Origin: Haloarcula pelagica
GTDB lineage: Archaea > Halobacteriota > Halobacteria > Halobacteriales > Haloarculaceae
Length of the DNA stretch: 64,000 bases
Reading direction: 5' to 3'
Assembly (NCBI RefSeq): GCF_030127105.1
Contig: NZ_CP126161.1
Location: 3,410,001 to 3,474,000 of the forward strand
Position 1 is the first letter of the stretch, and every line of letters begins with the position of its first letter. Both the position numbers and the translations under genes were made by a program. Positions 12,849 through 20,563 of the stretch are shown piece after piece. The notes below the pieces were generated by a model. The model saw nothing but the letters and a program-made list of their open reading frames with translations. It searched no databases and was not told where the DNA came from.

Positions 12849-14345
12849 TCACTCGTCCGCGTCGAAGAGTCGTCGCGCGGCGTCGCGGTCGACGGTCCCC
12901 GAGGCCGTCCGTGTGAGCGCGTCGACCACGCGGATCGTCTTCGGGACCTCGTAGGCGGCGAGCGCGGCCTCGCAATGGCTCCGGACGGCCGCCGCCGTCA
13001 CCTCGCCCGCGACCACGGCGGCGACCCGCTCGCCCCACTCCGCGTCGGGAACGCCGACGACGGCTGCGTCCTCTACCCCGTCGATCGTCCGGATGGCCGC
13101 TGCCACGTCGCCGGCGACGACGGTCTCGCCGCCAGTGACGATCCGGTCGTCGGCACGGCCGACCACCCAGAGGCGGCCGTCCTCGTCACGGTAACCCAGG
13201 TCGCCGGTGTGAAACCCGAACTCACCGAACGCGGCCCCCGTGCGGGCCTCGTCGAGGTAGCCCGGCGTGACCGTCGGCCCGTCGACGACGAGTTCGCCGC
13301 GCTCGCCGGGGGCAGACGGCTCCCCGCCGTCGACGACGGTCACGTCGGTGAACAGGAGCGGCTGACCGACGGTCCCGGGGTGGGAAAACGCCGTCTGTGG
13401 CCGCGCCGTCGCGATCTGTGAGGCGGTTTCGGTCATCCCGTAGGTGGGGTGGACCGGGACGCCACGGTCCCGGCAGCGCTCGACGAGCCGTTCGTCGGCG
13501 GGCCCGCCGCCCAGCAGGACGGTCCGCACCGATTCGGGAGGTTCCCACCCGTCGTCGAGGAGGCGCGAGAGCATCGTCGGGACCAGCGAGACACCGGTCA
13601 CGTCGTGTTCGTCCAGCACCGTCGCCGTCTCGCCGGTCTCGAACGACCGCTGGACGACCACGGTGGTCCCGTACAGCGCCGCGCGGACGAACGGCGCGAG
13701 CCCGCCCATGTGGTAGGTCGGGAGCGCGACGAGCCAGCGGTCCTCGGGCGAGACGCCCAGCCGGAACGCCGAGGCGGTGGCGCTGGCGACGAGGTTGCCG
13801 ACTGTGAGCCGGACCCCTTTCGGATCGCTCGTCGTGCCCGAGGTAAACAGGACGACCTGCTCGTCGTCGCGGGCGAGCGGAGCCGGGTCCGGCGGTGTGT
13901 TGTCGGTGTCCAGCGGCGTGACGCCCTCGGACTGCGGTGTGTCGACCGAAGCGACCGGACAGTCGGCGATCTCCGCGGCCGTCCGCTCGGTTCCGCGCTC
14001 GCAGACGAGCAGTGCCGGGTCGACGCGGTCCAGTTGGGCGGCGAGGCTGGCGGCCTCCAGGTCGACGTTCAGCGGGACGAGCGAGACGCCGGCACGCATC
14101 GCACCGAACAACAGGGACGCCATCCCGACGCGGGTGTCGACGAGGGTGGCGACGCGTCCCCCGTCCACAGTCTCGGCGTCCGCCTCGGTAGCAAAGCGGG
14201 CGGCGACGGCGTCGACCCGTTCGTCTAGGTCGCGGTAGCTCCACGCTCGGCCGTTGGCGGCGTCGATCACGGCCGTCCGCTCGGGGGTACTGGCGACGCG
14301 GTGGCTCACCAGGTCGCGGGTCGGCCAGTCGACGGGCTCACGCAC
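12849..14345 (-). CDS. menE: o-Succinylbenzoate-CoA ligase
   Basis: 498 residues. It is an acyl-CoA synthetase of the ANL superfamily: P-loop LFTSGTTSDPKGVRL at ~166-180, YGMTETAS in the middle, and the hinge region FHTGDLGYRDEDGRLWVVGRADDRI near residue ~390. Neighbouring menC and menA identify it as MenE, which activates o-succinylbenzoate with CoA in menaquinone synthesis. Its GTG start overlaps the menC stop by 8 nt, and it is the last gene of the menA-menC-menE unit. Confidence 0.93.
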   Translation of the reverse strand: MREPVDWPTRDLVSHRVASTPERTAVIDAANGRAWSYRDLDERVDAVAARFATEADAETVDGGRVATLVDTRVGMASLLFGAMRAGVSLVPLNVDLEAASLAAQLDRVDPALLVCERGTERTAAEIADCPVASVDTPQSEGVTPLDTDNTPPDPAPLARDDEQVVLFTSGTTSDPKGVRLTVGNLVASATASAFRLGVSPEDRWLVALPTYHMGGLAPFVRAALYGTTVVVQRSFETGETATVLDEHDVTGVSLVPTMLSRLLDDGWEPPESVRTVLLGGGPADERLVERCRDRGVPVHPTYGMTETASQIATARPQTAFSHPGTVGQPLLFTDVTVVDGGEPSAPGERGELVVDGPTVTPGYLDEARTGAAFGEFGFHTGDLGYRDEDGRLWVVGRADDRIVTGGETVVAGDVAAAIRTIDGVEDAAVVGVPDAEWGERVAAVVAGEVTAAAVRSHCEAALAAYEVPKTIRVVDALTRTASGTVDRDAARRLFDADE

Positions 14346-15392
14346 GGTCTGTCACCTCCGCGGGGTCGAGTCCCAGTCCGTCTCCCTGTGGCACCGAGAG
14401 CCTGCCGTCGACCAGTGTCGTCGGGTCGGGCGCGAGGTCGTCGTCCAGTCGATCGCCGGTCGCCAGGCCACAGGGGGCGATACCGGGGACGGCGGCGGCG
14501 ACGTGCAGCGCGGCGAGTCGGGCGACCACGCCGTCGATGGTCGTCGTGATCACGGGCTCGATCCCGCGGTCCTGCGCCCGCAGTGCGAGCGTGTGGGCGT
14601 TACCGGGGCCACCGACGACCATCGGCTTGAGGATCAACACGTCGGCCGCGTCGGCGTTGATGACGGTGTCGACGCGGTGCTCGATCAGGCTCTCGTCGAG
14701 GGCGACGCCGACCGGACCGCCCCGGAGGGCGGCGTGGCCGGCCAGGTCGCCGGCGGGCAGCGGTTGCTCGACGTACGCGACGCCAAAGTCGGCGAAGACC
14801 GCGAGCGCCTCCCTGGCTGTCGCGCGGTCCCAGGCACCGTTCGCGTCCGCACGGAGCGTCACACCGTCGCCGACCCGCTCGCGGACCGTACGCAGGCGGT
14901 CGATGTCCGCCGAGAGCGAGCGGGCACCGACCTTGAGTTTACAGCACTCGAAGCCCGCGTCGACGGCCTCGGCGACGGCCCGTGCAGTCTCGTCCGGACC
15001 GCCGTCCCCGACGGTCGCGTTGACCGGGACCGATCGACAGTCCCGCTCCCCGTCGAACCAGCGGTACAGCGGGACGCCGTCGGCCCGCGCGTCGGCGTCC
15101 AGCAGTGCCGTCGCGAAGCCGTGACGGGCCGCCGGCACCTCGTGGGCGTCGAGCGCGAGCAGCGCCCCGGAGTGACCCCGCTGGGCTCGGCGTCCGCGGC
15201 GGCCGCCAGCCCGTCCTCGCAGGCCGACAGCGACTCCGTCCAGCCCGGGAGCGGCGTCGCCTCGCCGACGCCCGTGTGTCCGCGGTGGTCGTACCGGACG
15301 ACGTAGCCGGTTCGCTCCTCGATGGTCCCCCGTGCGGTCCCCAGCGGCTCGGCCAGCGGCAGCGAGAACCGTTCGTAGGTGAGCCCGGTCAT
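14338..15392 (-). pseudogene. menC: o-Succinylbenzoate synthase, frameshifted
   Basis: Enolase-superfamily MenC split into two frames. The 5' part (MTGLTYERFSLPLAEPLG ... EDGLAAAADAEPSG) runs in one frame from 15392. The 3' part (SGALLALDAHEVPAARHGF ... to 14338) continues in another. The 3' part carries the lysine motif CCKLKVGA, the metal-site LRADANGAWD, a YVEQPLP segment and the C-terminal Lys of LILKPMVVGG. The frame changes at the CCCC run at 15176-15179 (GGGG on the coding strand). Adding one G gives a continuous 351-residue reading frame. Either the gene is freshly inactivated, or a base was lost in sequencing; the intact neighbours on both sides favour error. Confidence 0.85.
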
Positions 15393-16345
15393 AGCCCGGC
15401 GACACCGAGTCCCACTGCGAACAGCAGCGAGTGGAGAAAGAGCGTCTTGCCGACCCGCTCCAGCGCGGGGTTCAGCGCCGCGCCCTCTGTCCGCGTGAGG
15501 ACGGTCCTGCTCACCGCGGCCGCCAGCGGGAGCGAGAGCAGCGGCGCCAGTGCCGGAAGCCCGTAGGCCGGATCGAGCGCGAAGACGACCGGGACGACGT
15601 AGGCCATCCCGACGAGCGCGAGGAACTCGACGCGGCTCCACCCGTAGCCTAGGTAGACGACGAGGGTCTTCTTCCCGGCCGCGGCGTCGGTCTCGCGGTC
15701 CCGGATGTTGTTCACGACGAGGATCGCCGTCGAGAGGCCGGCGGCCGGGAGGCTCGCGACGACGGCGGCCAGCGGGACGCTCCCCGGCGGGAGTCCCGTC
15801 GGGAACAGCCCCATGCTCTCCATGCTCGCGACGGCCTGGACGTAGTAAGTACCCGTGACGGCGACCAGCCCGAAGTAGACGAACACGAACAGATCGCCCA
15901 GCCCGCGGTAGCCGTACGGCAGGGGGCCGCCCGTGTAGAGGACGCCGGCGGCGATGCCCGAGAGGCCGACAGCTACGATGGGGACGCCCCCGACGGCGAC
16001 GAGATAGACGCCGACCACGACCGCCAGCGCGTAGGTGGCGATCATGGCGCGTTTGACCTCGACCGGTTCGATGAGTCCGCCGGCGGTCACCCGCGTGAAC
16101 CCCTCGCGCTCGTCGGTGTCGGCGCCCTTCACGGCGTCGTAGTAGTCGTTCGCGAAGTTCGTCCCGATCTGGAGGAGGAGGGCCCCGACGAGGGCGGCGA
16201 CCGCCGGCAACGCGGCCGCGACGCCGGCGTGGACCGCCAGGCCGACGCCGACGACGACCGGCGCGGCGCCCGCGGGCAGCGTCTGCGGTCGTGCGGCCAT
16301 CACCCACGCCTTCCGCTTCGAGACATCTGCCGTCGCTGTGCTCAT
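15389..16345 (-). CDS. menA: 1,4-dihydroxy-2-naphthoate polyprenyltransferase
   Basis: 318 residues, UbiA-superfamily integral membrane prenyltransferase with about nine hydrophobic helices. The first Asp-rich motif is NFANDYYDAVKGAD at ~63-76, and the second is in the NNIRDRETDAAAGKKT segment near residue ~212. The N-terminal MAARPQTLPAGAAPV is typical of MenA. It attaches the polyprenyl tail to DHNA to make demethylmenaquinone, the main haloarchaeal quinone precursor. It overlaps menC by 4 nt and starts the menA-menC-menE operon. Confidence 0.95.
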   Translation of the reverse strand: MSTATADVSKRKAWVMAARPQTLPAGAAPVVVGVGLAVHAGVAAALPAVAALVGALLLQIGTNFANDYYDAVKGADTDEREGFTRVTAGGLIEPVEVKRAMIATYALAVVVGVYLVAVGGVPIVAVGLSGIAAGVLYTGGPLPYGYRGLGDLFVFVYFGLVAVTGTYYVQAVASMESMGLFPTGLPPGSVPLAAVVASLPAAGLSTAILVVNNIRDRETDAAAGKKTLVVYLGYGWSRVEFLALVGMAYVVPVVFALDPAYGLPALAPLLSLPLAAAVSRTVLTRTEGAALNPALERVGKTLFLHSLLFAVGLGVAGL

Positions 16346-16393
16346 TGTCGTCGTCTCGGGCCGCGACGTTCAAAGCGACTGTGGTTCCGGGGG

Positions 16394-18931
16394 TCAGCCG
16401 TCGTTCCAGGCGGCGAGTTCCGCTTCGATCTCCGCGTCGAGCCGTTCGAGGTCCGCGGTCACGGTCGCGGGTGTCATGTCCGCCCGGCCCTGCTGGATCA
16501 GCGAGCGAACCGTGGGGAACGGGCCGATCTGTGCACCGTTGGTCGCCGGCGTATCGACCGTCTCCCGGAACTGGTCGAACGCGACCGAGAAGTGGGGGTT
16601 CTCGTCGAACCACCCCGAGGCCTGGAGGCGCTCGATCGCCCCCTCGCAGACCGGGAAGTAGCCCGTCTCGCGGTGCCAGCGTGCCTGTTGGGCGGGTTCC
16701 AGCAGCCAGGTGAGAAACGCGGAGACGGTGTCCTCGACCGCCGGGTCCAGGTCGTCCCCGACCCACAGGGAGGCCCCGCCGACCAGGACGCCGTTTCGCT
16801 CCTCGCGCACGGGGAGATAGCCCGTCTCCAGATCGAAGTACGCGCCGGAGGTGATACTCCCCAGCGAGGAAGTCGAGCCGATCAGCATGGCCGCGCGTTC
16901 GTCGTGGAAGGCCTTCTTCGCCGCCCCGCGGGCCTTGATCCCGGGGTCGTGGTAGAGCCCGTCTTCCGCCATCCCCGTCCACCACTCGAAGAGGTCGACG
17001 CCGAACTCGCTGTCGAGGAAGGCGTTTGTAGGCGGCCCCGCGCGACCGTTCCCGTTGTCGACGAGTTCCTGGCCGGCCTCGGCGAACCACTGCTCGACGA
17101 ACCACGAGTAGTTCGCGAACGTGATCCCGTAGTCACAGACGCCCGCGTCGACGAGGCGTTCGCTCGCCGTCCGGACCTCGGCGAACGTCGACGGCGGGTC
17201 GTCGGGGTTCAGCCCCGCCGCCTCGAACAGGTCGCGGTTGAGACAGAGGACCGGGTTCGAGGAGTTGAACGGGACGGAGTGGAGGGTTCCGTCGACCGTG
17301 TAGTACTCGGCGACGGCGTCGACGAGCGAGGCGGTCGTGTCGGACGGGACGACGTTCTCCGCTGGCTGGAACGCGCCGCTGGTCCGGGCGTTCGTGCTGC
17401 CGATCTCGTTGATCTGTGCCAGCGCCGGTACGTCGCCCGAATCGACGGCCGCCATCGTCTCCTCCAAGACGCCGTCGTAGCTCCCCAGCGACCTGAGTTC
17501 GAAGTGGACGCCACCGTGTTCGGCCTCGAACTCCCGGGCGAGGTCGTGCAACAGCAACGACTTCGCGCCGCCCATCGCGTGCCAGAACTCGATCACGGTA
17601 TCACCCTTCGAGACCGTGTGTGTCGAGCGCTCGCCGGTGGTGAACTGCTCGGAGGCCGTGTCGAGTTCCTCGGCCTGGTCAGACAGCGTCGACACCTTGC
17701 TCGCGACCTCGGTCAGCGAACCGGTCTGGGTCTGTGCCGCTGCCGTGACGGTCTGTGCCTGTGTGGATGTCTCTTCGCTGACGGAACTCACGTCGTCGAC
17801 CATCGAGACGACGGCCTGTGTCGACTGGGCCTGTTCGTCGGTCGCGCCGTCGATCTCCTGAATGCCGGCGTTGACCTCCTCGACGATGTCGACGATGTCG
17901 TCCAGTCCGTCGATCGCTTCCTGCACGGCGGCCTCGGTCTCGTCGACCACCGACCGCGTGTCGTGCATGTCCTCGACGGTGGTCTCGGTCTGCTCGCGGA
18001 CCTCGGTGACGGTCTCGCTGATCTGGTCGGTCGCCTCCTTCGTCTCGGTCGCCAGCGTCTTGACCTCGTCGGCGACGACGCCGAACCCGCTACCCGCCTC
18101 GCCGGCCCGCGCCGCTTCGATGTTTGCGTTCAGCGCGAGCATGTTCGTCTGGTCGGCGATGTCGGTGATGAACTCGGTGATCTCCTCGATATCGCCCATC
18201 AGATCGCTCAGTTCCTCGACGGTCTGGACCATCTCGTCGGTCCGGGCGGCCATCGACTCCAGATCGTCGATCGCCGCCGTCGCAGCCTGCTGTGCGGCGT
18301 CGCCGCGGTCGACCGCCCGGGTGCCGCTCTCGGCGACCTCGTTCGCGGAGGCGGCGACCTCCTGTATCGTCGCCGAGAGCGACCGCATCTCGTCGGCGAT
18401 ACGCTGGAGATCCTCGTTTTGCTCGTCGGCGCCCGCCGCGATCTCGTCGATGGAGTCGCTCACACGCTCGCTCTCCTGTTTTACCGTCTCGACCTCCGTG
18501 GCGACCTCACTGGTCGCCTCGTCGACGGTCGTACTCGACTGTTTGACCCGTTTGAGCGTCCGGTTCCACTCGTCTAACATCCGGTTGTAGCGGGACGTGA
18601 ACTCGACGACGGCGTCGACATCCGAGTCGATGTCGGCACGCCGTGTCAGATCGCCCTCGGCGTTGGCCTCGACGACGCCGCGGAGTTCCGCCAGCGCGCC
18701 TTCGAGGTCGTACAGCCGGCGCTTTCGCTCGCGGGCCTCGGCTTCGAGTTCCGCAACCCGCTCCCGGGCGTCGTCACGCTCGGCTTCGACCGCTCTGAGT
18801 CGGTCGCGAAGTTCGTCGGCCGAAGCGGTTTCGATGTCCAGTTCCGCGGTGTCTACACCGTCCCGAGACGAGACGCGGCCGCCGTCGGTCGTGGTTCGCC
18901 GCTGTCGTTCGTCCGTTCGGTTCCCGTTCAT
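16394..18931 (-). CDS. Soluble transducer: HAMP + MCP signalling domain fused to ABC-type solute-binding domain
   Basis: 845 residues with no signal peptide and no transmembrane helix that I can see. Order: N-terminal coiled coil (~35-85); HAMP-like piece (~84-132, VVEANAEGDLTRRADID); methyl-accepting signalling hairpin (~135-430) with the conserved tip DQTNMLALNANIEAARAG at 260-277; then a complete solute-binding-protein domain (~444-845) beginning TVIEFWHAMGG. The last part resembles UgpB-type glycerol-phosphate/sugar binding proteins (SBP_bac_1 or 8), which are normally exported. Here the binding domain follows the MCP directly and should be cytoplasmic. The hairpin tip would engage CheA/CheW. 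It sits between menB and menA on the same strand, with its own TATA box. Confidence 0.93.
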   Translation of the reverse strand: MNGNRTDERQRRTTTDGGRVSSRDGVDTAELDIETASADELRDRLRAVEAERDDARERVAELEAEARERKRRLYDLEGALAELRGVVEANAEGDLTRRADIDSDVDAVVEFTSRYNRMLDEWNRTLKRVKQSSTTVDEATSEVATEVETVKQESERVSDSIDEIAAGADEQNEDLQRIADEMRSLSATIQEVAASANEVAESGTRAVDRGDAAQQAATAAIDDLESMAARTDEMVQTVEELSDLMGDIEEITEFITDIADQTNMLALNANIEAARAGEAGSGFGVVADEVKTLATETKEATDQISETVTEVREQTETTVEDMHDTRSVVDETEAAVQEAIDGLDDIVDIVEEVNAGIQEIDGATDEQAQSTQAVVSMVDDVSSVSEETSTQAQTVTAAAQTQTGSLTEVASKVSTLSDQAEELDTASEQFTTGERSTHTVSKGDTVIEFWHAMGGAKSLLLHDLAREFEAEHGGVHFELRSLGSYDGVLEETMAAVDSGDVPALAQINEIGSTNARTSGAFQPAENVVPSDTTASLVDAVAEYYTVDGTLHSVPFNSSNPVLCLNRDLFEAAGLNPDDPPSTFAEVRTASERLVDAGVCDYGITFANYSWFVEQWFAEAGQELVDNGNGRAGPPTNAFLDSEFGVDLFEWWTGMAEDGLYHDPGIKARGAAKKAFHDERAAMLIGSTSSLGSITSGAYFDLETGYLPVREERNGVLVGGASLWVGDDLDPAVEDTVSAFLTWLLEPAQQARWHRETGYFPVCEGAIERLQASGWFDENPHFSVAFDQFRETVDTPATNGAQIGPFPTVRSLIQQGRADMTPATVTADLERLDAEIEAELAAWNDG

Positions 18932-18950
18932 TCTTGACGATTGTTTTGGA

Positions 18951-18962
18951 TTAATATATATG
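18951..18962 (-). promoter_or_regulatory. TATA box of the transducer-SBP gene
   Basis: TATATATTAA on the minus strand, centred about 25 nt upstream of the ATG at 18931. This is the expected spacing for a haloarchaeal leaderless transcript, so the large fusion gene probably has its own promoter rather than reading through from menB. Confidence 0.55.
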
Positions 18963-19224
18963 TACCTTCCCGTAGAGGTAGTTTCGTTCTTTATTCGTAC
19001 TGGCAGTGACAGCCACTCTCGGTAAAGAAACGTTCACTCGGTCGATAGTCAGTATTCTTACCTATGTGCCCGCGGCTCGATACAGCAGCCGGCCCCATCG
19101 GGGCTCGCCGAGACCGGTTGGACGGGTACGGCGACACTGGGAGGTCTACTACCACACTCGGAACACGGCAGAGGCAGTGCTGTCGCGGTAGCGGACAGTA
19201 GCCGGTACCGGTGAGACCGCTGGG

Positions 19225-20178
19225 TCAGTAGTGCCAGGGCACGTCGTCGAAATCCGGCGCTCGCCCTTCGTTGAACGCGTCGCGACCCTCCTGGGCCTCG
19301 TCGGTCATGTACGCCAGCCGGGTCGCCTCGCCGGCGAACACCTGCTGGCCGACCATGCCGTCCGAGTCAAGATTGAACGCGTACTTCAGCATCCGCATCG
19401 CCGTGGGCGACTTGCTGTTGATCGCTTCGGCCCACTCGATCGCGGTGTCTTCGAGTTCATCGTGAGGGACCGCCTCGTTGACCATCCCCATATCGGCGGC
19501 CTCCGCGGCGCTGTAGGTCTTCCCGAGGAAGAACACCTCGCGGGCCTTCTTCTGACCGATCTGGCGGGCGAGATACGCCGACCCGAACCCGCCGTCGAAG
19601 GAACCAACGTCGGGATCGGTCTGGAGGAACTTCGCGTGCTCGTCGCTGGCGAGGGTCAGGTCACAGACCACGTGCAGCGAGTGGCCACCGCCGACGGCCC
19701 ACCCGGGGACGACGGCGACGACGACCTTCGGGATGTGACGGATCTGGCGCTGGACTTCGAGGATGTGGAGGCGGCCGACGTTTTCGGGTGCGTCGTCGGC
19801 TTCCGGCACTTCGTCCGCTCGCGGCTCGCTTTGCTCCGCGCTCGCCGTTTCCGAGTCACCTGGCGACTCGCTGTATTCGTAGCCGCTCTCACCGCGGATG
19901 CTCTGGTCCCCGCCGGAACAGAACGCCCAGCCGCCGTCCTTCGGGGAGGGGCCGTTCCCGGTGATGATGACACAGCCCACGTCGGTCAGGCGCTTGGCGT
20001 GGTCCAGCGCCGTCGCGAGTTCGTCGACCGTCTCCGGGCGGAAGGCGTTGCGCTTCTCGGGGCGGTCGAACGCGATCCGGACGGCGCCGGTCTCGGTCGA
20101 ACGGTGGTACGTGATGTCGGCGAAATCGAATCGGTCGACCGGGTTCCAGCGATCCGGGTCGAACAGCTCAGAGACCAT
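19225..20178 (-). CDS. menB: 1,4-dihydroxy-2-naphthoyl-CoA synthase
   Basis: 317 residues, crotonase fold. Recognisable segments: RIAFDRPEKRNAFRPETVDEL (CoA pocket), GWAFCSGGDQSIRG (oxyanion hole), VVPGWAVGGGHSLHVVCDLTLAS, QTDPDVGSFDGGFGSAYLARQIG and the C-terminal FNEGRAPDF. These are MenB-specific rather than general enoyl-CoA hydratase. A ~40-residue acidic insertion (~107-147, rich in Glu/Ser/Pro) lies after the oxyanion loop, as in other halophilic versions. MenB cyclises o-succinylbenzoyl-CoA. It is separated from menA by the transducer gene. Start at MVSELFDPDRW. Confidence 0.95.
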   Translation of the reverse strand: MVSELFDPDRWNPVDRFDFADITYHRSTETGAVRIAFDRPEKRNAFRPETVDELATALDHAKRLTDVGCVIITGNGPSPKDGGWAFCSGGDQSIRGESGYEYSESPGDSETASAEQSEPRADEVPEADDAPENVGRLHILEVQRQIRHIPKVVVAVVPGWAVGGGHSLHVVCDLTLASDEHAKFLQTDPDVGSFDGGFGSAYLARQIGQKKAREVFFLGKTYSAAEAADMGMVNEAVPHDELEDTAIEWAEAINSKSPTAMRMLKYAFNLDSDGMVGQQVFAGEATRLAYMTDEAQEGRDAFNEGRAPDFDDVPWHY

Positions 20179-20260
20179 ACCGCTCGTCGGGACGGGCGTC
20201 GCAAAAAGATTCACGTGTGGGCGAAACGCTTTCGGCAGTGTCACTCCAGCGTGGACGTGT

Positions 20261-20563
20261 ATGCCCTCCGACTCGGACGAACGGACGCTCAGGACCCTCC
20301 TCGGTGTCGGTTCCATCCTGATCCTCGCGTACAGTCTGATCATCGCCCAGCAGATCCTCCTCGGCGTTCTGGCTATCGTCGCCCTCTGGGCGGTCTATCT
20401 CGTCTGGCGACTCATCTCGGTCCTCGAACGGATCGCGGGCTCGCTGGAGTACCGCATCGAGCAGTCCGAGCGGGACGCCGACAACCGACTGGCCCGTGAG
20501 GGGACCACCGAAGTGGCCGAGGACGACAGCCTGCAGGACCCGGCGGTCGAACGCGAACGGTGA
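20261..20563 (+). CDS. Small two-span membrane protein (100 aa)
   Basis: 100 residues starting MPSDSDERTLRTLLGVGS. Two adjacent hydrophobic helices (~14-32 and ~33-50) precede a helical, charged tail (~55-100). Divergent from menB. The upstream open frame belongs to an antisense reading of menB and is not used. No family recognised; the tail could be a coiled coil facing the cytoplasm. Confidence 0.7.
   Translation: MPSDSDERTLRTLLGVGSILILAYSLIIAQQILLGVLAIVALWAVYLVWRLISVLERIAGSLEYRIEQSERDADNRLAREGTTEVAEDDSLQDPAVERER

Follow-up and report, generated by a model that had tools for sequence, protein, structure and literature searches.

How a chemotaxis transducer of the MCP type comes to carry a solute-binding protein (SBP) domain at its C-terminal end, on which side of the membrane that domain lies, and what it might sense are questions raised by a single gene in the window (the whole 64,000-nucleotide stretch of Haloarcula pelagica DNA analyzed here). 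The gene, at positions 16394 to 18931 on the minus strand, is one uninterrupted ATG-to-stop frame of 845 amino acids with its own upstream region, and it is kept as one frame in relatives; the plus strand across the same interval contains a stop. A preliminary description, which did not give the strand, had read this frame as an MCP signalling hairpin followed by a UgpB-type fold, and frame analysis, Pfam, NCBIfam, and AlphaFold modelling all bore out that reading. The AlphaFold model, built on a 32-member alignment (mean pLDDT, 81), placed a coiled coil at residues 38 to 91 (18659 to 18820, minus strand), followed by a weakly defined HAMP-like segment at about residues 85 to 125; the two hairpin helices at residues 106 to 275 and 277 to 428 (17648 to 18616, minus strand), with the tip QTNMLALNANIEAARAG at residues 261 to 277; an unconserved linker of 16 residues, 429 to 444 (17600 to 17647, minus strand), of low confidence, particularly at residues 433 to 440; and a confident two-lobed domain at residues 445 to 845 (16397 to 17599, minus strand). 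The last of these was assigned to the UgpB type by its NCBIfam match, its PDB matches, the model, and its ligand residues, confirming that hairpin, linker, and a complete binding fold reside in one chain.

No transmembrane segment, signal peptide, twin-arginine motif, or lipobox was found in the window protein by hydropathy and motif searches, in agreement with the preliminary description; the best 19-residue hydropathy over the entire protein was 0.89. The separate haloarchaeal UgpB relatives start with a twin-arginine (Tat) motif and a lipobox cysteine, whereas the fusions have neither, so that the export signal is missing just where the UgpB domain comes after an MCP hairpin. Contact with CheA requires the hairpin tip to face the cytoplasm, and with no transmembrane segment after the hairpin, the binding domain must be cytoplasmic as well. 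Fusions of Halohasta and Halonotius (L072, L079, L080, L083, and others) open with an N-terminal hydrophobic segment, with 19-residue hydropathy of up to 2.2, that is missing in other lineages; judged from its sequence, this segment could anchor the receptor in the membrane with the binding domain still inside the cell.

The binding domain was recognized by Pfam as SBP_bac_8 (residues 464 to 781, E = 1.2e-33) and by NCBIfam as UgpB (residues 442 to 814, E = 3e-58), the latter at 197 bits, under the equivalog cut-off of 411. Its closest solved structures were those of UgpB (4aq4, 6x84, and 9lff; E of about 1e-44), and UgpB structures were also the top PDB matches of the whole model in Foldseek, with target-normalized TM scores of 0.82 to 0.89. 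Structures of UgpB with glycerol 1-phosphate (G1P) and sn-glycerol 3-phosphate (G3P) show the ligand hydroxyls contacted by Gly303, Arg393, and Glu88, the phosphate contacted by Tyr64, Ser143, Ser266, and Tyr342, and a clamp formed by Trp188 and Trp191 that has been linked to the small ligand (PMC12718374). When the sites of the Phaeobacter protein were carried over by pairwise alignment, Y64, E88, S143, S266, G303, Y342, and R393 corresponded to Y485, E509, S558, S686, G719, Y758, and R809 of the window protein, and the clamp residues W188 and W191 to N607 and W610. All seven polar ligand residues, together with W610, were invariant in 32 diverse fusions sharing 43 to 70% identity with the window protein; given 69 invariant columns among 405, the chance of finding eight of the nine listed sites invariant is about 4e-6, although some of these columns may be structurally fixed. 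The position of W188 is occupied by N in 29 of the 32 fusions and by T in the other 3, leaving the two-tryptophan clamp incomplete, and most of the close separate haloarchaeal UgpB proteins share the same site pattern, including the N. The site thus resembles a functional glycerophosphate pocket whose clamp has been altered, and its affinity and exact ligand may differ from those of bacterial UgpB on account of the change at N607.

Gene neighborhoods in relatives point to the same class of compound. Glycerol kinase (glpK) lies within 4 kb of the fusion gene in 24 of 41 well-assembled fusion genomes, an arrangement expected by random placement in well under 1% of cases per genome (3 to 4 Mb). 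Mere co-occurrence with glpK was rejected as evidence: glycerol kinase is nearly universal, being found also in 32 of 35 genomes lacking the fusion, and for that reason it is adjacency, not presence, that is informative. In Haloarcula and Halomicrobium, glpCBA diverges from a fusion-glpK pair; in Halonotius and Halohasta, glpK is followed by two conserved genes, the fusion, and then HPr and/or PtsI, with DhaL nearby in Halohasta; and in strain SHR40, 2.4 kb separates the fusion from glpK, and glpC and glpB lie farther out. Linkage to glpK must have changed at least 4 times across the tree, and gene order differs between lineages, so that a single inherited arrangement does not explain it; the linkage has been retained or rebuilt. 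In 17 of the 41 genomes, that of the window among them, the fusion gene is away from glpK.

Two other features of these glycerol loci were observed. A 391-amino-acid Cdc6/Orc1-like AAA ATPase, a relative of replication initiators that scores far below the family cut-off, is a conserved neighbor of glycerol catabolism genes across many haloarchaea, H. pelagica included (L065:10068-11243, L123:4537-5712, and about 15 loci altogether). Directly after glpK is a conserved, apparently hydrophobic protein of 330 to 380 amino acids (L065:8880-10013 and L123:5765-6892) that matched nothing in Pfam or NCBIfam and is a candidate glycerol transporter.

Together, the invariant ligand residues and the linkage to the glp operon strengthen the earlier guess of a glycerol phosphate as the predicted ligand. 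In the reading that we favor, at a probability of roughly two in three, the fusion would act as a soluble transducer in the cytoplasm, informing CheA of intracellular G3P, or of a close glycerophosphate, and thereby mediating metabolism-dependent glycerol taxis, its ligand, coupling, and behavior all being predictions. Glycerol would enter the cell and be converted by glycerol kinase to G3P; G3P or a close glycerophosphate would then close the two lobes of the UgpB domain, which the short linker would hold at the end of the C-terminal arm of the hairpin, beside the HAMP-like end and well removed from the tip. Lobe closure would alter the packing there and, through it, the activity of CheA at the tip, and the output would be taxis toward glycerol, read through a metabolite made inside the cell and not by sensing outside it.

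Archaea make G1P for their lipids, and a receptor of the same type could instead respond to this precursor, to a glycerophosphodiester, or to another phosphorylated polyol in the cytoplasm, an alternative that we consider unlikely though deserving of weight. Phaeobacter UgpB binds G1P besides G3P, the affinities of the bacterial protein being near 2 uM and near 1 uM, respectively, and relatives that bind GPC retain the phosphate ligands (PMC12718374); the exchange of W188 for N removes half of the clamp tied there to a small ligand. Affinity is the main difficulty for the favored reading: a cytoplasmic sensor that bound as tightly as bacterial UgpB could already be full at ordinary pool sizes and might fail to tell G3P from G1P. 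The genome of the window also has a separate UgpB gene with a Tat/lipobox start, in a locus with ABC permease and ATPase genes and an adjoining GDPD-family phosphodiesterase gene (L124:4977-10142; C1, about 3.12 Mb), likely a glycerophosphodiester uptake system to judge from its gene content. Against these alternative ligands stands the fact that the glp catabolic operon (glpK and glpABC), a frequent site of the fusion, handles G3P.

In the MCP part, Pfam MCPsignal (PF00015) matched residues 212 to 384 with E = 8.7e-44 and 149.8 bits against a cut-off of 34.6; the tip DQTNMLALNANIEAARAG is canonical, with many of its columns invariant across the 32 fusions; and motif matches mark two candidate methylation-type pairs, at residues 190/191 and 366/367. 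The C-terminal arm of the modelled hairpin spans 156 residues, or 22.3 heptads, a length consistent with the 44H class of about 22 heptads per arm. Because the arm has this length, the binding domain is attached where both arms begin and end, and from the model we infer that its input would enter the signalling rod at the customary end, the one on which ordinary sensors act by way of HAMP. The domain order that had been noted as reversed is so in sequence, where the sensor comes after the hairpin, but it is less odd in space: the ends of an antiparallel hairpin lie together, away from the CheA-binding tip. The HAMP-like segment itself is plausible from its motif, ANAEGDLT..YNRML, and from an alignment that pairs it with the second HAMP-type segment in a membrane transducer from the same genome, but Pfam HAMP was absent among the matches listed for the window protein (E up to 1; 25 of 44), and the assignment is weak.

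The pattern of conservation bears on whether the SBP domain is a relic or a structural tail, with the transducer sensing something else or working by clustering with other transducers. The N-terminal region of the fusions is poorly conserved, the linker region (residues 425 to 446) has no invariant column among the 32 fusions, and membrane anchoring varies, as in Halohasta and Halonotius. Conservation in the fusions is highest, however, in the SBP domain, where 69 of 405 columns are invariant, compared with 33 of 341 for the MCP part, and where the ligand residues do not vary, making a relic quite improbable. A further possibility, rated lower still, is that the fusion controls a process other than swimming, such as glp expression or glycerol uptake, through CheA or by contact with GlpK. 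Its embedding in the glp locus of many species would suit such a role; set against it are the canonical MCP tip, the adaptation-type motifs, and the presence of CheA in all 41 fusion genomes tested, compared with 8 of 13 other genomes checked.

The same architecture was found well beyond H. pelagica. Full-length fusions are encoded by 22 of 32 genomes of the genus Haloarcula, by about 36 of 146 genomes of the family, and by 29 of 243 genomes sampled from the order; in a sample of 247 genomes from the phylum, all matches at E of 1e-90 or better fell within that same order. Carriers include Haloarcula rara, H. vallismortis, H. japonica, H. amylolytica, and H. argentinensis, Halomicrobium katesii, and Halapricum, and further Halonotius, Halohasta, Halorubrum, Haloferax denitrificans and Haloferax larsenii, and Halobiforma nitratireducens; the nearest relative of the window fusion is 70% identical. 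Many genera thus have the MCP-then-SBP order in one frame with coinciding domain boundaries, and since full-length fusions occur in so many independent genomes, the window gene is not an assembly artefact. A chimeric assembly, or two genes read through as one frame, is thereby refuted. Likewise, none of the findings that would have spoken against the preliminary description was made in the window protein, which has neither an N-terminal membrane segment nor a junction artefact and whose fusion is intact in dozens of relatives. When 61 binding domains were placed in a tree, the 45 from fusions fell on one side of a branch with 94/96 support, recovered in 96% of 200 bootstrap trees, which by sequence phylogeny shows a single origin of the fused domains; the deepest rows are long-branched, and the outgroup side is less certain.

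Damaged and spurious forms were also encountered. One locus (L044; G004 C4:76332-77153) is a remnant that has lost most of the MCP hairpin, so that a fusion-type N terminus leads into the binding domain, and a second damaged copy in the genus, with a split frame, is in a 58%-complete genome. A 2,402-amino-acid frame in L071 that would unite glycerol kinase with the fusion was rejected, as it crosses a run of N, and long open frames in G207, G164, and G238 that hinted at further fusion types all proved to be separate Tat lipoproteins.

The window copy itself sits among menaquinone genes. Upstream of it is menB (1,4-dihydroxy-2-naphthoyl-CoA synthase; 19225 to 20343, minus strand) and downstream menA (DHNA polyprenyltransferase; 15389 to 16345, minus strand), followed by menC and menE; both neighbors were judged incidental. 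By blastn against L168 and by tblastn, a stretch of about 2.8 kb carrying the fusion (16415 to 19214) is absent from G006, the genome with the most similar menA (94%), which aligns to the window up to position 16414 and again from 19215, with about 85 bases between. The window fusion is a lone single-gene insertion between menB and menA, for which G006 provides the empty site; menB adjoins menA in several other Haloarcula genomes as well. A functional tie to the menaquinone genes was rejected: other Haloarcula fusions lie outside the men locus, and the menB-menA pair of G006 is intact without a fusion. The glp locus of the window's genome is 3.26 Mb off in record coordinates, with no gene between glpK and glpABC, and the window copy was probably relocated or acquired. 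Separately, menC (14338 to 15405, minus strand) looks frameshifted, with relatives aligning mostly from about residue 78 of the annotated frame and a MenC-like N terminus (MTGLTYERFSLPLAEPLGTARG...) lying in another frame; a frame at 14859 to 17105 (minus strand) overlaps here. The sequence appears to reflect either a sequencing error or a damaged gene.

These comparisons support the idea, put forward from the one sequence, of an internal sensor derived from a captured binding domain. An earlier description of an MCP-UgpB fusion was not found in the open-access literature (most subscription papers fall outside that scope), and the claim of an undescribed class stands to that extent and no further. 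We lean slightly toward the fuller proposition that an extracytoplasmic binding protein has been turned into a cytoplasmic, C-terminal G3P sensor, in a chemoreceptor class that is undescribed in the literature searched, has been conserved in several haloarchaeal families, and sits within a glycerol catabolic locus. Glycerol from Dunaliella is a main carbon source in salt lakes, and no haloarchaeal glycerol receptor was found described in our literature searches; the fusion family offers a concrete candidate, with a named candidate ligand and mapped predicted binding residues. If the proposal is true, cells steer by what their own glycerol kinase makes, and the reuse of a soluble binding-protein domain inside the cell, at the C-terminal end of an MCP hairpin, would allow input at that end to be studied without a membrane.

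Among known systems, Car (Htr11) of Halobacterium salinarum is a cytoplasmic arginine receptor (PMC3579733). Like Car, the window protein has no transmembrane segment and lies inside the cell, as a soluble haloarchaeal transducer for what would be an intracellular metabolite; it differs in its ligand and in the UgpB fold that comes after its hairpin. To our knowledge, Car has no fused binding protein. BasT and CosT, reportedly described by Kokoeva et al. in 2002 (cited in PMC3579733) as working with separate binding proteins, likewise rely on SBPs for recognition in haloarchaeal chemotaxis; there, as generally understood, the transducer is membrane-bound and the SBP a separate exported lipoprotein, whereas the fusion joins the two in one cytoplasmic chain lacking transmembrane segment, signal, and lipobox. 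The fusion domain resembles UgpB, the G3P-binding protein of the UgpABCE transporter (4aq4 and 9lff), in its fold, with about 27 to 29% of residues identical across the full domain, and retains each of the seven polar ligand residues and one clamp tryptophan of the two. Unlike UgpB, it is fused to an MCP, has no signal peptide or lipid anchor, lies away from ABC permease genes (its neighbors in the window being men genes), scores under the equivalog cut-off, and has N in place of W188. The cyanobacterial ATPases NrtC and CmpC carry a C-terminal solute-binding regulatory domain (PMC13249358, PMC8601584) and, like the fusion, reuse a periplasmic-type binding domain within the cell as a C-terminal metabolite sensor; theirs belongs to a different SBP family and controls a transporter ATPase, not a chemoreceptor. 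By analogy with these systems, the fusion would combine cytoplasmic sensing, as in Car, with the sensor of an SBP-coupled system.
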